A stretch of 64,000 nucleotides of DNA from Hyphomonadaceae bacterium (lineage in GTDB: Bacteria; Pseudomonadota; Alphaproteobacteria; Caulobacterales; Aquidulcibacteraceae): assembly GCA_019753175.1 (NCBI GenBank), contig JAIELK010000010.1, positions 124,001 to 188,000 on the forward strand, read 5' to 3'. The position numbers and the translations under genes are program-made. The notes under the pieces are model-generated. The model did not search any database. It saw nothing but the letters and a program-made list of their open reading frames with translations, and was not told the DNA's origin. Shown in pieces: positions 24,420 to 31,524 of the stretch. Position 1 is the stretch's first letter, and every line of letters begins with the position of its first letter.

Positions 24420-25115
24420 TTAACGTTTTGTGAATCGCAATCGATAGGGAAACAGAACGAATCCCGCGATCACAACAATGAGGCTGATGAGGCTCGCGGC
24501 AACCAGCAGTCCATTGTTGAAATCTTCGTGGTCACGCCAATCCATGATGTGCAACGCCCAGAGCGCGTCGTAGGCGCGCCAGAGATCGGAGCGGCGCGCC
24601 GTTACGCGACCGGTATCGGCGGCCACAAACACGGCCAGCCCCTCAGCGTCCTCGAAGGCGATGCGCCAAGCCGGCAACGCGCCGCGATATTCGGGGCTCT
24701 CTTGCGTAACCAGCGTAGCGCTTCGGATTGCCGGGGCGTCCGCCACGTAGGTGGACGCAATGGCGCGTGCGCTGGCTTCGTCGAGCGGCGATAGCAGCCG
24801 CCGCGTTGCAACATCGATCAGCATTGGCGCGCGGTCAGCGAACTCCACGATCGCCAACGCCTCACCCCGCACACCGCGTTCGTAAGCAATGCGCGACGGC
24901 GGCTCCGGGAAGAACGCCGCCAACTCGGCCGGCGCGGGGAGCTCCCTGGGGTCAAGCGGCGTGACCGCTGCTTCAGCGATGCGATGCTCGCTGCGCACCC
25001 GTTCGATCGGGTAGAGCGCGAAGAATAGGCCCGAAGTCACCCAGAACAGCACTTGCACGCCAACGACCAACGCCAGCCATTTGTGCAGCCAGGATGCGGC
25101 GGCGGCGATGCGCAT
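24420..25115 (-). CDS. PepSY-associated membrane protein
   Basis: 231 residues. One membrane helix at about 8-35 (HKWLALVVGVQVLFWVTSGLFFAL), a large periplasmic portion containing PepSY-like beta segments (PAWRIAFEDAEGLAVFVAADTGRVTAR), then WALHIMDWRDHEDFNNGLL and a second helix at the C-terminus. This HxxD-bearing topology matches PepSY-TM proteins, which in characterised cases accompany flavin or haem electron transfer to siderophores. The ATG is embedded in the stop of the upstream acyl-CoA dehydrogenase (TAATG), hence the start choice. Confidence 0.75.
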   Translation of the reverse strand: MRIAAAASWLHKWLALVVGVQVLFWVTSGLFFALYPIERVRSEHRIAEAAVTPLDPRELPAPAELAAFFPEPPSRIAYERGVRGEALAIVEFADRAPMLIDVATRRLLSPLDEASARAIASTYVADAPAIRSATLVTQESPEYRGALPAWRIAFEDAEGLAVFVAADTGRVTARRSDLWRAYDALWALHIMDWRDHEDFNNGLLVAASLISLIVVIAGFVLFPYRLRFTKR

Positions 25116-26287
25116 TAATAGCTCTTCGGCAAGCCGAGCACCCGCTCGGCGATGTAGTTGAGGATCATTTCGCGAGACACCGGCGCGATACGCGCGATCA
25201 TCGCTTCGCGAAAATAGCGCTCGACGAAGTATTCCTTGGCATAGCCCATGCCGCCATGCACGAGCACGGACGTCTCGCACGCTCTAAATCCTGCTTCGGC
25301 GCCGAGATATTTCGCGGCGTTCGCTTCCGCGCCGCAATCGCGTCCAGAATCGTAGAGCGCCGCCGCTTTGAACGTCAGCAAGTCTGCCGCTTCGAGTTCG
25401 GCCCACGCTCTTGCGAGCGGATGCTGAATGCCTTGATTTTGGCCGATCGGGCGGCCAAACACGATGCGCTCCTTCGCATACTGCGCCGCCCGCTTCAGCG
25501 CCGCTCGTCCGAGACCAATCGCTTCGGCGGCAAACAAGACGCGCTCGGGATTGAGGCCGCTAAGCAAGATTTTGAATCCAGCGCCTTCTTCGCCAATCAA
25601 TTCAGCATCGGAAACCTCAAGGTCTTCGATGAAAAGCGTGTTGCACTCGACGGCCTTGCGGCCCATTTTGGGGATCGGATTGGCCTCGATCCTTGTGCGA
25701 TCGAAATCCGCATAGAAGAGCGAGAGGCCGTCCGTGGGGCGCCTGACTTGATCCTTCGGCGTCGTGCGCGCGATGATCAGAATCTTGTTGGCGCGCTGTG
25801 CGTTCGTCGTCCAGATTTTTCGTCCGCGAATGCGATAGCCGCGATTGGTGCGTTCGGCCCGCGTCTCCAAGCTTGCCGTGTCGAGGCCGCTGTTTGGTTC
25901 GGTCACGGCGAAGCACGCCTTGTCGGTCCCATCGATCGCGGGCGGCAGGAAACGCTGCTGCTGTTCGGGCGTGCCGAACTTCACGATCGGCATGAGCCCG
26001 AAGATGTTGAGGTGAATCGCGCTGGCGCCGGAAAAGCCTGCACCAGACGCCGCCACTGTCTGCATCATCAGCGCAGCTTCGGTGAGCCCGAGCCCTGCGC
26101 CGCCGACGCTTTCCGGCATGGCGACGCCCAACCATCCGCCCGCGGCGACATCAGCCACAAACTGCTCGGGAAAGTCGCCGCTTTCGTCGGTCTTCAGCCA
26201 GTAGTGGTCGTCATACTTCGAGCAGATCTTCTCGATCGCTTCTTTGATCGCACTTTGTGCTTCCGTGGGTTCGATTCCGATCGTCAT
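25115..26287 (-). CDS. Acyl-CoA dehydrogenase, FadE-like branch
   Basis: 390 residues. FAD-binding blocks CFAVTEPNSGLDT and KIWTTNAQRA are present, and the C-terminus reads ARIAPVSREMILNYIAERVLGLPKSY. The position that holds the YEGT glutamate in most acyl-CoA dehydrogenases is APVS here, so the base is probably the Glu in NPERVLFAAEAIG, as in isovaleryl-CoA and long-chain enzymes. Its ATG overlaps the stop of the amine oxidase gene (TGATG), and its stop overlaps the next start. Likely substrate: a branched or long acyl-CoA, inferred only. Confidence 0.85.
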   Translation of the reverse strand: MTIGIEPTEAQSAIKEAIEKICSKYDDHYWLKTDESGDFPEQFVADVAAGGWLGVAMPESVGGAGLGLTEAALMMQTVAASGAGFSGASAIHLNIFGLMPIVKFGTPEQQQRFLPPAIDGTDKACFAVTEPNSGLDTASLETRAERTNRGYRIRGRKIWTTNAQRANKILIIARTTPKDQVRRPTDGLSLFYADFDRTRIEANPIPKMGRKAVECNTLFIEDLEVSDAELIGEEGAGFKILLSGLNPERVLFAAEAIGLGRAALKRAAQYAKERIVFGRPIGQNQGIQHPLARAWAELEAADLLTFKAAALYDSGRDCGAEANAAKYLGAEAGFRACETSVLVHGGMGYAKEYFVERYFREAMIARIAPVSREMILNYIAERVLGLPKSY

Positions 26288-27354
26288 CAGGCTTCAAATC
26301 TCTGCGGCGAGAGCGCCGACCATTCGGGCGGAACGTCCGCGCCAAACACGTAAGCGCTTATGATCTCCGCAGTCACTGGCGCCAAGAGCCAGCCGGCGCG
26401 CGAATGGCCCGCGGCCACAAGCAAGCCATCCCCGGATGGGCCGATCATCGGCCAGCCGTCCGGCGACATGGGCCGGATGCCCGCCCATGCCTTCTCGCCT
26501 TGCTTCACGACGCCCGGCAGCAGCGCTTCCGCCGCCGAGAGCAACTCAACACTCCGCGCGGGCTCCGCGCGGCGATCGTAACGGTCATACTCCAGGGTTG
26601 CGCCCAGGACGACATCCTCGCGGCGCGGGGCGAGGTAGAAACCGGGCGCGCGAAGGGTTCGCTCGAGCGTCCGAGCCACCTCGACCTGAACCAACTGCCC
26701 CTTCGCGGGGCGCACATGCCGCAACGCCGGCGCAGCAGCCGCCAGCTTGGCATTCGCCCAGACGCCTGGCACCAGCACGATCGCGTCCGCTTCGTAAACC
26801 CGCCCATCATGGGTAAGGGCGGCATGAGTCGTGACGTTGGCGATGTCGGTGTGGAAGTCGATCAACACGCCTAGCGCGCGCGCCTCCATCTGCAGACCCG
26901 ATAGAACCCTCAGCGGGTCCGCCACGCCTTCGTCAGTCACATGCACGGCATGGTCCAGCTTGATGTCGAACGGCAACAACCTGCGCACGTCTCGCGCGGA
27001 TGTCCGCTTTGCCGCCCTCCCGAAACGCTCAGCGTTGATGCGCAGCGCCTCGGCGCCGTGCTCATCCCTGCTGACGACGACAGCACCGTCAAACCGCACC
27101 CCGTCCGCCCACGCAGCGCCTTCGCGCTTGCGTCGCCAGAGTTCGAACGACGCCCAGGCCAGCGCGTCATGCGGCGATGCTTGACCTTCCAGCGGAGCGA
27201 GCATTCCCGCCGCCGCCGCCGATGCTATCGGCCCATACGGCGTGGGATGCTCTGGCTCCGCTTCGCACACCGTGACGTGTGCGCCGCCTTGCCTCAGCAC
27301 TATCGCGCACCAGAGACCAACGACACCGCCGCCGACGATGACGACCTTCTTCAT
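26287..27354 (-). CDS. ThiO-like FAD-dependent amine oxidase
   Basis: 355 residues. Rossmann motif VVIVGGGVVGLWCAI at the N-terminus; C-terminal DAO-family segments AWAGIRPMSPDGWPMIGPSGDGLLVAAGHSRAGWLLAPVTAE. The order and length match glycine oxidase ThiO / D-amino acid dehydrogenase (DadA). Glycine oxidase makes the imine used in thiazole synthesis, but no thiamin gene is adjacent, so another small amino acid is possible. The ATG overlaps the stop of the SLOG gene in ATGA. Confidence 0.8.
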   Translation of the reverse strand: MKKVVIVGGGVVGLWCAIVLRQGGAHVTVCEAEPEHPTPYGPIASAAAAGMLAPLEGQASPHDALAWASFELWRRKREGAAWADGVRFDGAVVVSRDEHGAEALRINAERFGRAAKRTSARDVRRLLPFDIKLDHAVHVTDEGVADPLRVLSGLQMEARALGVLIDFHTDIANVTTHAALTHDGRVYEADAIVLVPGVWANAKLAAAAPALRHVRPAKGQLVQVEVARTLERTLRAPGFYLAPRREDVVLGATLEYDRYDRRAEPARSVELLSAAEALLPGVVKQGEKAWAGIRPMSPDGWPMIGPSGDGLLVAAGHSRAGWLLAPVTAEIISAYVFGADVPPEWSALSPQRFEA

Positions 27355-28016
27355 GCCACACGCATTTCAGGGGGACGCGCCGCGCGGCCGAAAGTCCGCG
27401 CCAGGGCTTCGTGCAGCTTACGGCGAAACGTGCCCGCTCGCGGCAAGGGCGCGGGACCAACCAGCACCGTCTTGCCGCCCTGAGCCGGAATCCACAGCAC
27501 CAAACCGCCTTTCTCCAGCATCAGCGCGGCGACCTCCGACGTCCCGCCGGGGCCTTTCGGGGGCAAGCCATTCCAGACGCACAGCAGCAGATCGGCCTTC
27601 TCGATCAAGGCCCGACCGACGGCGGCGTACGGCGCAGCGCCACCACCGCCGACCTTCTCCACCAATTCGTTCGACACCGGCAGGATGCGACGCGAAGCCC
27701 AGAGCAGTCGCTGGTAATGTTCCTTCGACTCCTGATCGGCGAAGTCTTCCTCATATCGCTCCACCGAAAACGGCAACGGCGTCACCAAGCGCCAACCACG
27801 AGCAAGCGCCGCATCAGCAGCGTAGCGATCGGCGCCTTCCGCGATCGCCGAGTGCAGTACGCACCTTGGCGGGCCGTCGGTCGCCTCACGCGCGGCGTGC
27901 TCGGCTGCGTCAATGGCGCTCGCGATCTCGTGTTGGATGCGCGGCCTTTCCGGTTCCGGCAATTGATTGAGTCGATGGCCCGTCACCGCAACAATCAGCG
28001 GACGCGACGCGCTCAT
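27351..28016 (-). CDS. SLOG-superfamily protein, predicted nucleotide sensor or processor
   Basis: 221 residues, no signal peptide or membrane helix. Blocks seen: VAVTGHRLNQL (10-19), LHSAIAEGADRYAADAALARG (54-74), PLPFSVERYEEDF (80-92), then KADLLLCVWNGLPPKGPGGTSEVA (140-162). This is the order of the VTGHR/SAxAEGADR branch of SLOG (Rossmannoid, related to LOG and DprA), which in conflict systems is predicted to bind or cleave nucleotide ligands and is often paired with SLATT or TIR effectors. Here the partner is a patatin phospholipase: the ATG lies inside the patatin stop (ATGA), so coupling is direct. Four open codons above this ATG are rejected for that reason. Confidence 0.75.
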   Translation of the reverse strand: MSASRPLIVAVTGHRLNQLPEPERPRIQHEIASAIDAAEHAAREATDGPPRCVLHSAIAEGADRYAADAALARGWRLVTPLPFSVERYEEDFADQESKEHYQRLLWASRRILPVSNELVEKVGGGGAAPYAAVGRALIEKADLLLCVWNGLPPKGPGGTSEVAALMLEKGGLVLWIPAQGGKTVLVGPAPLPRAGTFRRKLHEALARTFGRAARPPEMRVA

Positions 28017-29245
28017 GCAGATCTCCACTCCGGCAGGTCGAACTTCGGATCGGGATAGGCCGCATCGACAAAAGTCCGGCCGAAGCCGACGCCAATCTCA
28101 AACAGCAGCTCCATGTTTTCCTTCCTGCCGTTATCCATGAGGTCGAGCGCATCCAGCGTGTCGACGTCAAGCTCGCGTCCCAACACCCGCTCAAGCGTCG
28201 TCATCGGCGGCGCGGGATCACCGAGCGGCACCGCTCTTGGCTTCACATCGAGCGGCACGTCCATTCGCTGATAGTCGAGCAAGGGGTCGCCGCTGAAGCA
28301 CACGCCGGCCATATCGCCGATCTCGGAATTGATGCGCCACGGCTTTCGCGGGGCGGAGAAGGCCTGCATCATCATCACGCCTTGCACCTGGGTGTCATGA
28401 ACCATGGCGCGCAGCGCATGCACCCCGCGCAGGCCTGGCGGCAGCCCCTGGAACGCTCGGCCATTGACCGTCGGCCGCCGCATGCCCGTCCCGCACGACG
28501 TCATCATCAGATGGTCCGCACCCGGCTTCCAGCCGAAGCGATACGAAGGCTCCAGCGCCAGCATGAACAGCTGCAAACTCGGATTGTTGTTGGCGCCAAC
28601 GGCGCCGTCCACGAAATAGCCCTTCTGCGTCGGCCGGCGCTGTTCGTCGAATGCGATGTCGATGACGACCTCGTCGAAAAAGGTCGGCGCAGCCGCGCTC
28701 GCCAGCACGAGGTCGACCAAACGATAGCTCTTGTTCGGATAGACGTCTGAACCGGGGGGCGGATCGTAGTACAGACCAAGCGGATGGTTGGTCAGCACCC
28801 ATGCAGAGCCGGTATCGATCCGCTTTGTGTGGATAGCAAGGCCCGTGCGCAAATCCTGCGAGCCGAGCGTGCGCTGACCCATGACGCCCTGCAGTGCTTG
28901 CCGGAGCTTACCCGACTCGAACTTGCAGTCGAGGAACAGGCCGTCGCCGGCCTTCCTTCCAAACACCTCGGGCCCGAGCCGCATGTAGAGCGCGATAAGT
29001 TCGTCGACGCTGAGACCCAAGGCAAGGCCGGTGGCGATAATGGCGCCCGTCGACGTACCGCCGATCAGGTCGTAATAATCGCAAAGGCGAAACGCCTCGC
29101 CGACCCCGGAACGGCCACGCAGTTCGTCCTCAAGCGGTTTGAGGAGGCCGAGCGTCAAAATTCCCTTCACCCCACCGCCATCGAGCGAGAGGATGCGCTT
29201 CGGCCCGGTGTCCGGCGACAAGTGCTCATAGAGAGTGCGCGCCAT
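28013..29245 (-). CDS. Patatin-like phospholipase, CapV-like
   Basis: 410 residues, cytoplasmic by sequence. The complete patatin catalytic set is present: oxyanion loop DGGGVKG (22-28), nucleophile GTSTG with Ser65 (63-67), and the dyad Asp213 in VDGAVGANNNPS. The protein has the longer C-terminal extension (residues 290-410) seen in CapV-type and CBASS-associated phospholipases, though that part is not diagnostic. Such enzymes deacylate membrane lipids; CapV does so on binding a cyclic dinucleotide. No CD-NTase occurs in the window; the coupled SLOG gene is the likely partner. Thirty-five bases separate it from the FolC-like gene upstream. Confidence 0.88.
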   Translation of the reverse strand: MARTLYEHLSPDTGPKRILSLDGGGVKGILTLGLLKPLEDELRGRSGVGEAFRLCDYYDLIGGTSTGAIIATGLALGLSVDELIALYMRLGPEVFGRKAGDGLFLDCKFESGKLRQALQGVMGQRTLGSQDLRTGLAIHTKRIDTGSAWVLTNHPLGLYYDPPPGSDVYPNKSYRLVDLVLASAAAPTFFDEVVIDIAFDEQRRPTQKGYFVDGAVGANNNPSLQLFMLALEPSYRFGWKPGADHLMMTSCGTGMRRPTVNGRAFQGLPPGLRGVHALRAMVHDTQVQGVMMMQAFSAPRKPWRINSEIGDMAGVCFSGDPLLDYQRMDVPLDVKPRAVPLGDPAPPMTTLERVLGRELDVDTLDALDLMDNGRKENMELLFEIGVGFGRTFVDAAYPDPKFDLPEWRSA

Positions 29246-29280: not shown

Positions 29281-30495
29281 TCAAAAGAAGTCCAACGCAG
29301 CAGGGTTCAAGCCCAGATGCGCGGCCTTAAACTCCGAAGCCAAGAAAAATCCGCCTGCAACGAGAATCGCGCCGCTCGGCGCACGCGTTAGAGCGAGCGT
29401 TCGCGCGGCCGCAACGTCTTCTGCAAGCACGATCTCAGCGGTTGGGTTGGCGGCCGCGCAGGCCGCCGCCACAACAGCGGCCGGCGCGCCTTTGTGCCGC
29501 GCCGCCACGCAGATGATCGTCTCAAAGGCCGGCGCCAGTGAGCCGGCGATCGCGGAGACGTCCTTGTCATACGACGCGCCGCACACAAGCAGCGCCTCAC
29601 CCGATCCACGCATAGCCTGAAAGCCAGCGAGCGATGCGGCGACAGCCTGCGGCGTGTGCCCCACATCGATAATCACGAGCGGTTCACCCGGCAGCGCCTC
29701 GAGCCGCCCGGGCCAGCGTGCGGCCGCGAACCCCGCCTCGACCTCTGCATCGTCCAGCCGCGCCGTCGCACGCGCAAGAGCCAGCGCCAGCGCCGCGTTC
29801 TGGCGCTGATGTGCTCCGTGGAGTGGGAGGTCCCCGTCGAACGGCGTTACGCACTGCGCGTTCACGCCGCGCTCGGCGCAATATGACAGGATGCTTGCAC
29901 GTTCACTTGCCGCATCGGGGCCAAAGTAAAGCGCGGCGCCGGGAGGTGCGGCGTCGATTTTGTTGCGGGCAATCTCGGCCAGCGTGTCGCCCAGAAGGTC
30001 GGTATGCTCAAAGTCCAGCGACGTCAGCGCGACCCGCTTGGCTTCGATGAGCCGCACGGGGTCGAGTCGGCCGCCAATGCCCGCTTCCCAAACCGTGTGC
30101 GCGCACCCGCTGGCGGCAAACCAATCGGCGGCCACAAGGAACAAGAACTCAAAGCCGCCCATGTTGGCGCTTTCGCTCGCCGCCGCTGTGGCTTGGACCA
30201 CTCGTTCCCAGTGCCGTTCCAACGCATCATCCGAGATGTCTTCGCCATCGATCCGGAAGCGTTCGTTCAGCCTCAGCATGTGTGGCGATGTGAACAGCCC
30301 GACCGGCCGCGCCGCTCGCTCCAACAACGCTGCCGCCATTGCTGCAGTCGACCCCTTTCCGTTCGAGCCGACGATGACGATGCCTCGTTCGCCGAAGCGC
30401 GTGAGATCGACGCCGAGTTGCGCGGCGATTTTCGGCAGTCGCGGCAAACACGAACCGGCGCCGAACTTTGGGTATGGAACGCGCCAGCGCCTCAT
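29281..30495 (-). CDS. FolC-family Mur ligase-like enzyme
   Basis: 404 residues. FolC-type features: YPKFGAG near the start, P-loop VGSNGKGSTAAM (about 41-52), GLFTSPHMLRLNERFRI, EAGIGGRLDPVR and HGAHQRQNAALALALA, followed by the Mur ligase C-terminal domain. FolC adds glutamate to dihydropteroate/folate. The usual neighbours accD and trpA are absent, and the gene is coupled (ATGA) to an ATP-grasp ligase of cyanophycin-synthetase type, so an amino-acid ligase role outside folate is possible. The start at 30495 was chosen for this overlap. Confidence 0.75.
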   Translation of the reverse strand: MRRWRVPYPKFGAGSCLPRLPKIAAQLGVDLTRFGERGIVIVGSNGKGSTAAMAAALLERAARPVGLFTSPHMLRLNERFRIDGEDISDDALERHWERVVQATAAASESANMGGFEFLFLVAADWFAASGCAHTVWEAGIGGRLDPVRLIEAKRVALTSLDFEHTDLLGDTLAEIARNKIDAAPPGAALYFGPDAASERASILSYCAERGVNAQCVTPFDGDLPLHGAHQRQNAALALALARATARLDDAEVEAGFAAARWPGRLEALPGEPLVIIDVGHTPQAVAASLAGFQAMRGSGEALLVCGASYDKDVSAIAGSLAPAFETIICVAARHKGAPAAVVAAACAAANPTAEIVLAEDVAAARTLALTRAPSGAILVAGGFFLASEFKAAHLGLNPAALDFF

Positions 30496-31442
30496 GAGAG
30501 CGCCGCCTCGAAATTGGCGCGCCAAATAGTCTCAATGAGGTCCCAGCGCCCGTGATCTTCGAGAGTGCCAAACATCGGGTTGGAATTCACCTCGATGACC
30601 ATCGGCGCTTCGCTTACCGGCCAGAACATGTCGACAGCCGCCAACCTGAGACCAAGCGCATCAGCCGCAGCAAGCGCGACCTCCGCCAAGGCGCTGGCGG
30701 CCCCGTCATGAACAGTGGTTGAGCTACCGCCAGCCGATCGGTTCGCAGGCCCAAGCAGCACCGCGCGCTCACCGCGCCCGAGCACGGCCTGCGGCGTCAA
30801 GCGCCAGCCGTTGGCATCGACTGCGCGCAAGCGAACGCTGCAACGTTCGCCATGCAGGCTGAGCGCCAAACCCTCAATCGTGGTTTCGCCGTCACCGACG
30901 AGCTGCGGCAAGCGCTTTTCATAAGAGAACAACGCTTGACCATTCAGCACCACCACGCGGTGCTCTGGCGCCTGCATGTAGGGTTGCACAAGAACCGCGA
31001 AGTGGTCAGTGGCGACCCGATTCAAATAGTCGTCAAACTCTTCAACCGTCTCAATGATCTCTGCGAACAACCCATTCGACGCCGCGATCGGCTTGCAAAA
31101 CAACGGAAAGCGCGCGCGCCGAACGTACGCGCGCGCGTCGGCTGGCTCGCGCCCAGGCGAACGCAGCTCGCGCCAACGATCGCTGGTGAAGAACAGCTCA
31201 CCGCGCAGCGCGGCCACACCGCGTCGATGCAACGCGGCGGCGCAAAACGCCTTATCGCGCGAGAGCGCGGCGGCGCGCGCGTCGTTGAGGCCATAGGGTG
31301 ACCCAGCGCCGGCGGCAAAGATCGCCGAGCGCCCCCCGCCGTCGCGCACCTCGAAGCAATAGCCATCAGCGCCGTCGAGCGACGTGAAACCGTAACCGCA
31401 ACGCGACGCGGTATAGGCTGCGTAGCGCGCGTGCGCGCTCAA
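30492..31442 (-). CDS. ATP-grasp ligase, cyanophycin-synthetase-like
   Basis: 316 residues from a TTG start. ATP-grasp blocks: LSRDKAFCAAALHRRGV, FPLFCKPIAASNGLFAEII, EHRVVVLNGQALFSYEKRLPQLVGDGETTIEGL, GPANRSAGGSSTTVHDGAA and the metal-binding VIEVNSNPMFG. The VGDGxxTI and NxSxGGxxxTV pieces are those of the cyanophycin synthetase / GshAB ATP-grasp domain. The open frame continues through the tRNA-His gene, where the first 15 residues would merely translate tRNA, so the true start is taken at TTG 31442, five bases after the mature tRNA end; an internal start is possible. Confidence 0.7.
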   Translation of the reverse strand: MSAHARYAAYTASRCGYGFTSLDGADGYCFEVRDGGGRSAIFAAGAGSPYGLNDARAAALSRDKAFCAAALHRRGVAALRGELFFTSDRWRELRSPGREPADARAYVRRARFPLFCKPIAASNGLFAEIIETVEEFDDYLNRVATDHFAVLVQPYMQAPEHRVVVLNGQALFSYEKRLPQLVGDGETTIEGLALSLHGERCSVRLRAVDANGWRLTPQAVLGRGERAVLLGPANRSAGGSSTTVHDGAASALAEVALAAADALGLRLAAVDMFWPVSEAPMVIEVNSNPMFGTLEDHGRWDLIETIWRANFEAALS

Positions 31443-31447
31443 AAATG

Positions 31448-31524
31448 TGGTACCGCCTCCAGGGCTCGAACCAGGGACCTCTGGATCCACAATCCAGCGC
31501 TCTAACCAACTGAGCTAAGGCGGC
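31448..31524 (-). tRNA. tRNA-His(GTG), noncanonical acceptor end
   Basis: 77 bases, complete cloverleaf: acceptor GCCGCCT/AGGCGGT, D arm GCTC/GAGC, anticodon arm CTGGA-TTGTGGA-TCCAG with anticodon GTG, T arm CCTGG-TTCGAGC-CCTGG, and encoded CCA. Position 1:72 is a G-U pair, the discriminator is A73, and the base before G1 is T, so the universal G-1:C73 pair is not encoded. This is the rewired tRNA-His known from an alphaproteobacterial clade including Caulobacter. The T stem carries a U-U mismatch at 51:63. Confidence 0.95.

Follow-up and report, generated by a model that had tools for sequence, protein, structure and literature searches.

Patatin-like phospholipases controlled by a nucleotide signal are already known as a general type from the cyclic oligonucleotide-based antiphage signaling system (CBASS), with the lipases CapV and CapE. 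Here we examine a gene pair in which such a patatin is encoded next to a SLOG-fold protein. The pair lies in a 64,000-nucleotide stretch of DNA (the window; positions 124,001 to 188,000 of contig JAIELK010000010.1) from a Hyphomonadaceae bacterium, one of a group of environmental alphaproteobacteria, with a genome of 3.1 Mb in 40 contigs. Other described systems also invite comparison. Thoeris combines the TIR protein ThsB with SLOG- or macro-domain effectors, and the SLOG domain of ThsA is reported to sense isomers of cyclic ADP-ribose (cADPR) (PMC11204291; PMC9503650). The YpsA-like clade of SLOG proteins includes cADPR sensors, and LOG-type SLOGs cleave glycosidic bonds (PMC9503650). A 2026 preprint reports that phage proteins with a ryanodine receptor (RyR) domain bind, and some hydrolyze, 2'cADPR and 3'cADPR via His75, Asp117, Trp78 and His100 (PMC13232231).

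Comparison of our locus with these systems and with related genomes leads us to lean, by a narrow measure, toward a lipase that has become fixed in the chromosome and whose control depends on an exchangeable partner, which would receive (or quench) an ADP-ribose (ADPR)-type signal. A more specific proposal is that SLOG and RyR, although unrelated, can replace each other as receptors through which one and the same ADPR-type alarm signal reaches the lipase, the signal-making TIR enzyme usually being encoded in trans. This would be an undescribed lipase branch of Thoeris-like signaling, and we offer it only tentatively.

The patatin and the SLOG protein

The patatin gene (28013–29245, on the minus strand, as are all features between 25115 and 30525 given below) encodes a predicted effector of 410 residues (P0001). 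It was matched by Pfam Patatin at 7e-24 and by the PADLOC phospholipase effector model PDLC00758 at 1e-43, and it has the GGGxxG oxyanion loop, the GxSxG serine and the DGx aspartate of patatin-like phospholipases. The catalytic Ser65 codon in GTSTG lies at 29051–29053 and the catalytic Asp213 codon in DGA at 28607–28609. Both residues are invariant in 14 aligned relatives, in which the motifs as a whole (GTSTG, GGGVKG and D213-G214) vary little or not at all. A preliminary description of this DNA had called the patatin intact on the strength of S65 and D213, and that call is confirmed.

The likeness to CBASS lies in the shared lipase superfamily, the intact Ser/Asp dyad and the best fold match (AbCapV/CapE). 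The top PDB fold match was AbCapV with cyclic GMP-AMP (cGAMP), and the nearest solved relatives were the CBASS lipases CapV and CapE plus plant patatin. However, the sequence match to CapV is confined to the catalytic core, and the NCBIfam CBASS_lipase model gave 8e-32 and 110.7 bits, under its cut-off of 200, so we regard the protein as CapV-like but not a CapV. Our locus also differs from CBASS in having no CD-NTase, its partner being a SLOG or RyR protein. A SMODS-type cyclase had no match in the whole genome, the locus included, which agrees with the cyclase-free module of the preliminary description. A patatin paralogue, 46–48% identical, is encoded on contig 3 (L005:1456-2658) between the genes for a PagL-like outer-membrane protein and purA; it has no SLOG neighbor and is also present in relatives within the genus.

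The second gene (27351–28016) encodes a SLOG-fold protein of 221 residues (P0002), which is predicted to receive or quench a signal of ADPR type. No Pfam family scored above its cut-off (best YAcAr, 14 bits, E 0.046), and the protein's sequence profile had no meaningful match among PDB sequences; the SLOG assignment, as already made in the preliminary description, therefore rests on fold. Among PDB structures, the AlphaFold model (predicted local distance difference test, pLDDT, 91) matched YpsA best; further matches were DprA, MCP, LOG, ShosA and TRPM2 (in its nucleotide-binding region). These place the protein in the SLOG superfamily with its YpsA/DprA/LOG-type Rossmann-like fold. The motifs GHRLNQL, AEGxDR and GxGGT are invariant in 14 relatives. 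Judged by the LOG motif PGGxGT, the GGT at residues 157–159 (27540–27548) is a candidate nucleotide-phosphate loop. Neither the SLOG nor the RyR partner is covered by a PADLOC model, and a tblastn search of plasmids with the SLOG protein gave no match.

At about 1e-40, the SLOG profile also matched the N-terminal parts of SLOG-DUF4231/SLATT proteins, SLATT being named 'SMODS and SLOG-associating 2TM effector domain' in Pfam. Our SLOG protein is homologous to this N-terminus but stops after the Rossmann domain and has no transmembrane SLATT (two-transmembrane, 2TM) part. Elsewhere in the genome, contig 3 encodes a second, divergent SLOG-DUF4231-SLATT protein of 652 residues. Its gene adjoins an oppositely oriented one for a product of 1053 residues with the NTPase-like P-loop motif GEGGAGKT (L083:6871-11994 for the two).

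The junction of the two genes reads TCTGCATGAGCGCG, with the TGA of the patatin gene inside the ATGA of the SLOG start (28013–28016), just as the preliminary description had it. An alternative SLOG start, GTG, is possible 12 nt upstream. A second ATGA overlap, absent from the preliminary description, joins the end of the SLOG gene to the start of a DAO/ThiO-type oxidoreductase gene.

Exchange of the partner at one site

About 15 genomes from at least eight genera of the family share the order patatin-SLOG-oxidoreductase, and the pairing is therefore not a matter of chance. Within the genus, we read the stretch bordered by the FolC-like and DAO genes in each of 30 genomes. It held SLOG in seven, RyR in 21 (a count that includes some RyR genes present as pieces at contig ends), neither in two and both in none. 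The mutual exclusion of SLOG and RyR gave a Fisher p of 2e-5, uncorrected for kinship. Genomes with RyR keep the same patatin (75–80% identical), and the protein that takes the place of SLOG is unrelated to it and about 212 residues long. PF02026 was the best Pfam match of all eight RyR partners tested in the genus (E 1e-5 to 1e-2), and when a profile of the RyR-partner family was run against the PDB, the first six matches were all ryanodine receptors (best E 0.005). The pair proposed earlier is accordingly no stand-alone two-gene module tied to SLOG, its partner being interchangeable. Our own genome has a separate RyR protein on contig 19 (L169), a TrkA-like protein with a terminal RyR domain (PF02026, 1.3e-9).

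The exchange has happened more than once. A tree of flanking genes calls for at least five changes of state, four of them forced by well-supported branches, and the patatin tree for four, two of them forced. One of the changes falls in another genus, g10, which has patatin-RyR in one genome (G045) and patatin-SLOG in three (G038, G049 and G052). In the outer genera, SLOG is the only state seen, and it is probably ancestral. Positions in the patatin that might follow the partner type were near-perfect at best (R263K and L151V) and within reach of shuffled labels. We disregarded the frameshifts in the SLOG copies of G014 and G028, which are probably errors of assembly, given that neighboring genes in G014 are broken as well.

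In the RyR partners, His99, Trp102 and Asp131 are invariant (15/15). By motif, they would correspond to H75, W78 and D117 of the phage protein RyDEP, an RyR-domain cADPR glycosidase, in its HxxW...D pattern. Like RyDEP, the RyR partner has PF02026-type matches and this His/Trp/Asp arrangement, here kept as HxxW...EKxxD. It differs in being bacterial, in sharing an operon with a lipase and in the apparent lack of the second His, the one that contacts phosphate in RyDEP.

Two genomes, G022 and G024, have a TIR gene inserted between those for patatin and RyR. The G022 gene matched TIR_2 at 5e-16, and the G024 protein aligns closely with its product. These were the only relatives with a TIR gene at the locus, and our own locus has none. 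SLOG and RyR come from families that would suit a cADPR-isomer receptor. The combination of a TIR protein, a putative nucleotide-binding receptor and an effector resembles Thoeris, which differs from our locus in that here the effector is a lipase encoded by a separate gene, the TIR gene is absent from the locus itself, and SLOG alternates with RyR. At least 14 TIR_2 domains above the Pfam cut-off are encoded in the own genome (L161-L168), several of them adjoining on contig 16. In the TIR proteins beside RyR (L122 and L124), the C-terminal half contains another region that resembles TIR/ThsB, which in L124 matched PADLOC ThsB at 3e-6 across residues 215–278.

Neighborhood, selection and wider relatives

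The locus is a fixed, vertically inherited metabolic neighborhood. Upstream of the patatin lies a FolC/Mur-ligase-like gene (29281–30525; Pfam Mur_ligase_C), which forms the border of the variable slot and is kept in relatives, followed by an ATP-grasp gene that overlaps it (29281–31490 for the two). Instead of serving folate synthesis, the two may encode the halves of a split ligase for peptides or amino-acid polymers; the genome has a further FolC-like gene at another place, 36% identical to the one at the locus. Downstream of the SLOG gene come the FAD-dependent oxidoreductase of DAO/ThiO type (26287–27354; Pfam DAO, 2e-55) and an acyl-CoA dehydrogenase (25115–26287; assigned by Pfam), about 90% identical within the genus. 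The oxidoreductase is retained in the genome that lost both patatin and partner (G017), so it is probably a stable neighbor outside the module. The preliminary description had already noted the metabolic neighbors of the operon; the pair does not lie in a defense island.

Both genes of the pair are better conserved than the adjoining FolC-like and oxidoreductase genes. The ratio of nonsynonymous to synonymous substitution rates (dN/dS) was mostly 0.03–0.14 for the patatin (0.22 in one pair) and 0.04–0.14 for SLOG, as against 0.12–0.21 for the FolC-like gene and 0.06–0.24 for DAO. Purifying selection on patatin and SLOG was stronger than on the FolC-like gene. This is the pattern of neither a decaying pair nor a fast arms-race gene.

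Two genomes depart from the intact arrangement on the patatin side. G008 has a patatin without a partner; it is the longest branch in the tree, and its motifs have decayed, reading GGGAKA instead of GGGVKG, GGSSA instead of GTSTG and DPEG instead of DG. G017 has neither gene, and its gap retains ATG CCC AAG ACG CTG (MPKTL) with a stop soon after. The patatin of L014 begins with the same MPKTL, and the gap in G017 reads as a deletion scar of the patatin start.

Few genomes beyond the family have a patatin of this type. Its profile found it in four of 385 genomes in a sample of the class and six of 399 in a sample of the phylum, with the own genome included in both counts. Three genomes of a more distant family, f74, have RyR-TrkA, patatin and SLOG-SLATT genes close together (RyR-TrkA proteins Pfam-tested in G169 and G722). 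There each of the two domains is joined to a membrane effector, SLOG to SLATT parts and RyR to a TrkA protein of K+-channel type. The patatin and SLOG genes overlap by the same ATGA in G169 and G529, and the SLOG-SLATT gene of G722 has the opposite orientation. Checked as the preliminary description had suggested, the pair does co-occur beyond close relatives. In Bauldia (L050), the patatin gene is convergent with one for a SLOG-DUF4231 protein. TPR-S proteins are encoded near the patatin in G222 and G798, and both TPR-S and TIR proteins in G539. On a Rhizobium plasmid, genes for SLATT, patatin and TPR-S follow one another, and TIR genes lie nearby.

Other rhizobial plasmids encode relatives of the patatin 2–4 kb from a SLOG-like open reading frame (ORF), a proximity that is only suggestive since other genes intervene. 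On Sinorhizobium plasmids (L101, L102 and L103), a small SLOG-like ORF, a TraG-type coupling protein and the patatin type fall within about 5 kb; in L101, a gene for an ankyrin-STAND protein comes next.

Candidate control of the lipase

In the reading that we favor, the patatin would be an active phospholipase effector of CapV type. The SLOG protein would bind an ADPR-type signal, with cADPR isomers as our best guess for the ligand. Such a ligand is suggested by the occupation of one slot by two folds that are unrelated but have a ligand class in common. The signal itself would come from another enzyme of the cell, most likely one with a TIR domain acting in trans; the 14 TIR_2 domains and the lack of a SMODS cyclase make that the probable source. 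Binding to SLOG would then alter lipase activity, presumably through sensing and direct contact, so that membrane lipids might be cut only under stress such as phage infection. An unrelated RyR-domain protein for the same ligand class could take over the SLOG slot, sometimes together with a TIR gene.

RyR domains are not known to make a signal, and the 14 TIR domains could do so. For this reason, SLOG more likely replaces the receptor (or a quencher) than the signal maker. The preliminary description had put SLOG in the place of the CD-NTase or sensor. A nucleotide-type signaling role is supported by the alternation of SLOG, RyR, and TIR with RyR in one slot, all of them components of NAD/ADPR-signal systems, and by the lack of a SMODS-type cyclase in the genome; the part of signal maker is less likely than that of receptor or quencher. 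Overall, the earlier interpretation is partly supported, being right in kind and wrong in detail.

The strongest competitor, which we consider unlikely, is that the patatin binds the nucleotide signal itself, as CapV and CapE do, and that SLOG or RyR destroys or soaks up the signal to guard against misfiring, like a type III CRISPR ring nuclease. Phage RyR proteins hydrolyze or sequester 2'/3'cADPR, and the RyR partners keep the His/Asp dyad (PMC13232231); LOG-type SLOGs cleave glycosidic bonds (PMC9503650). CapV bound to cGAMP is the best PDB match of the patatin, but by sequence only the catalytic core matches CapV. A lone partner is tolerated where a lone patatin has decayed, as a quencher would predict. 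Against a quencher, the phosphate-contacting His of RyDEP is apparently missing from the RyR partners, and the fusions of SLOG and RyR to SLATT and TrkA membrane parts in f74 favor sensing over quenching.

It is improbable that the patatin is a housekeeping enzyme, a constitutive lipid-remodeling lipase with a nucleotide-metabolism partner and no alarm signal. Fixed synteny between the FolC-like, DAO and acyl-CoA dehydrogenase genes, low dN/dS, vertical inheritance and the paralogue between the PagL-like and purA genes would all suit such an enzyme. However, the partner has repeatedly been exchanged for an unrelated RyR protein, a TIR gene has been inserted, the entire cassette was lost in G017, and distant relatives are set among SLOG-SLATT, RyR-TrkA, TPR-S and TIR genes. 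A toxin-antitoxin-like pair, in which a ligand-free partner binds and silences the lipase, is very improbable. In its favor, the partner is small, its gene overlaps that of the lipase, and it is tolerated alone where the lipase alone has decayed. Against it, if protein binding were all that mattered, one slot would not be expected to hold two unrelated folds from nucleotide-binding families; RyR shows no variation at its candidate ligand residues, and the one or two patatin positions that track partner type do so no more than under random labels.

Several observations weigh against receptor-controlled lipase activity. SLOG and RyR both have signal-cleaving relatives, which makes quenching possible. 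The RyR partners stay below the Pfam cut-off for PF02026 (best 26.0 bits vs 27.4), and the partner in G045 has no RyR match in Pfam and was matched only by the family profile. The neighbors of the pair are metabolic and the site is not in a defense island. Intact partners occur without a patatin in G039 (SLOG) and G002 (RyR), and the evidence from loss amounts to one degraded and one deleted patatin copy. That a lone partner is intact where a lone patatin is degraded suits a harmful lipase dependent on a controller, in small numbers.

We found no description of the patatin-SLOG pairing, the exchangeable receptor or the stable chromosomal setting in the open-access literature, most subscription journals being outside the search. 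If the proposed control of the lipase is correct, SLOG, bacterial RyR domains and TIR products, whose ligands are debated, would be linked through a single effector, and phospholipases would join the effectors of ADPR-type signals. The exchange at this site would amount to a natural swap experiment in which a single molecule should be bound by both of the unrelated folds that fill the slot. The long-standing idea of a cADPR response in ryanodine receptors would also gain a bacterial counterpart. For these bacteria, such control would mean that a conflict-type module has turned into a stable part of the core chromosome.

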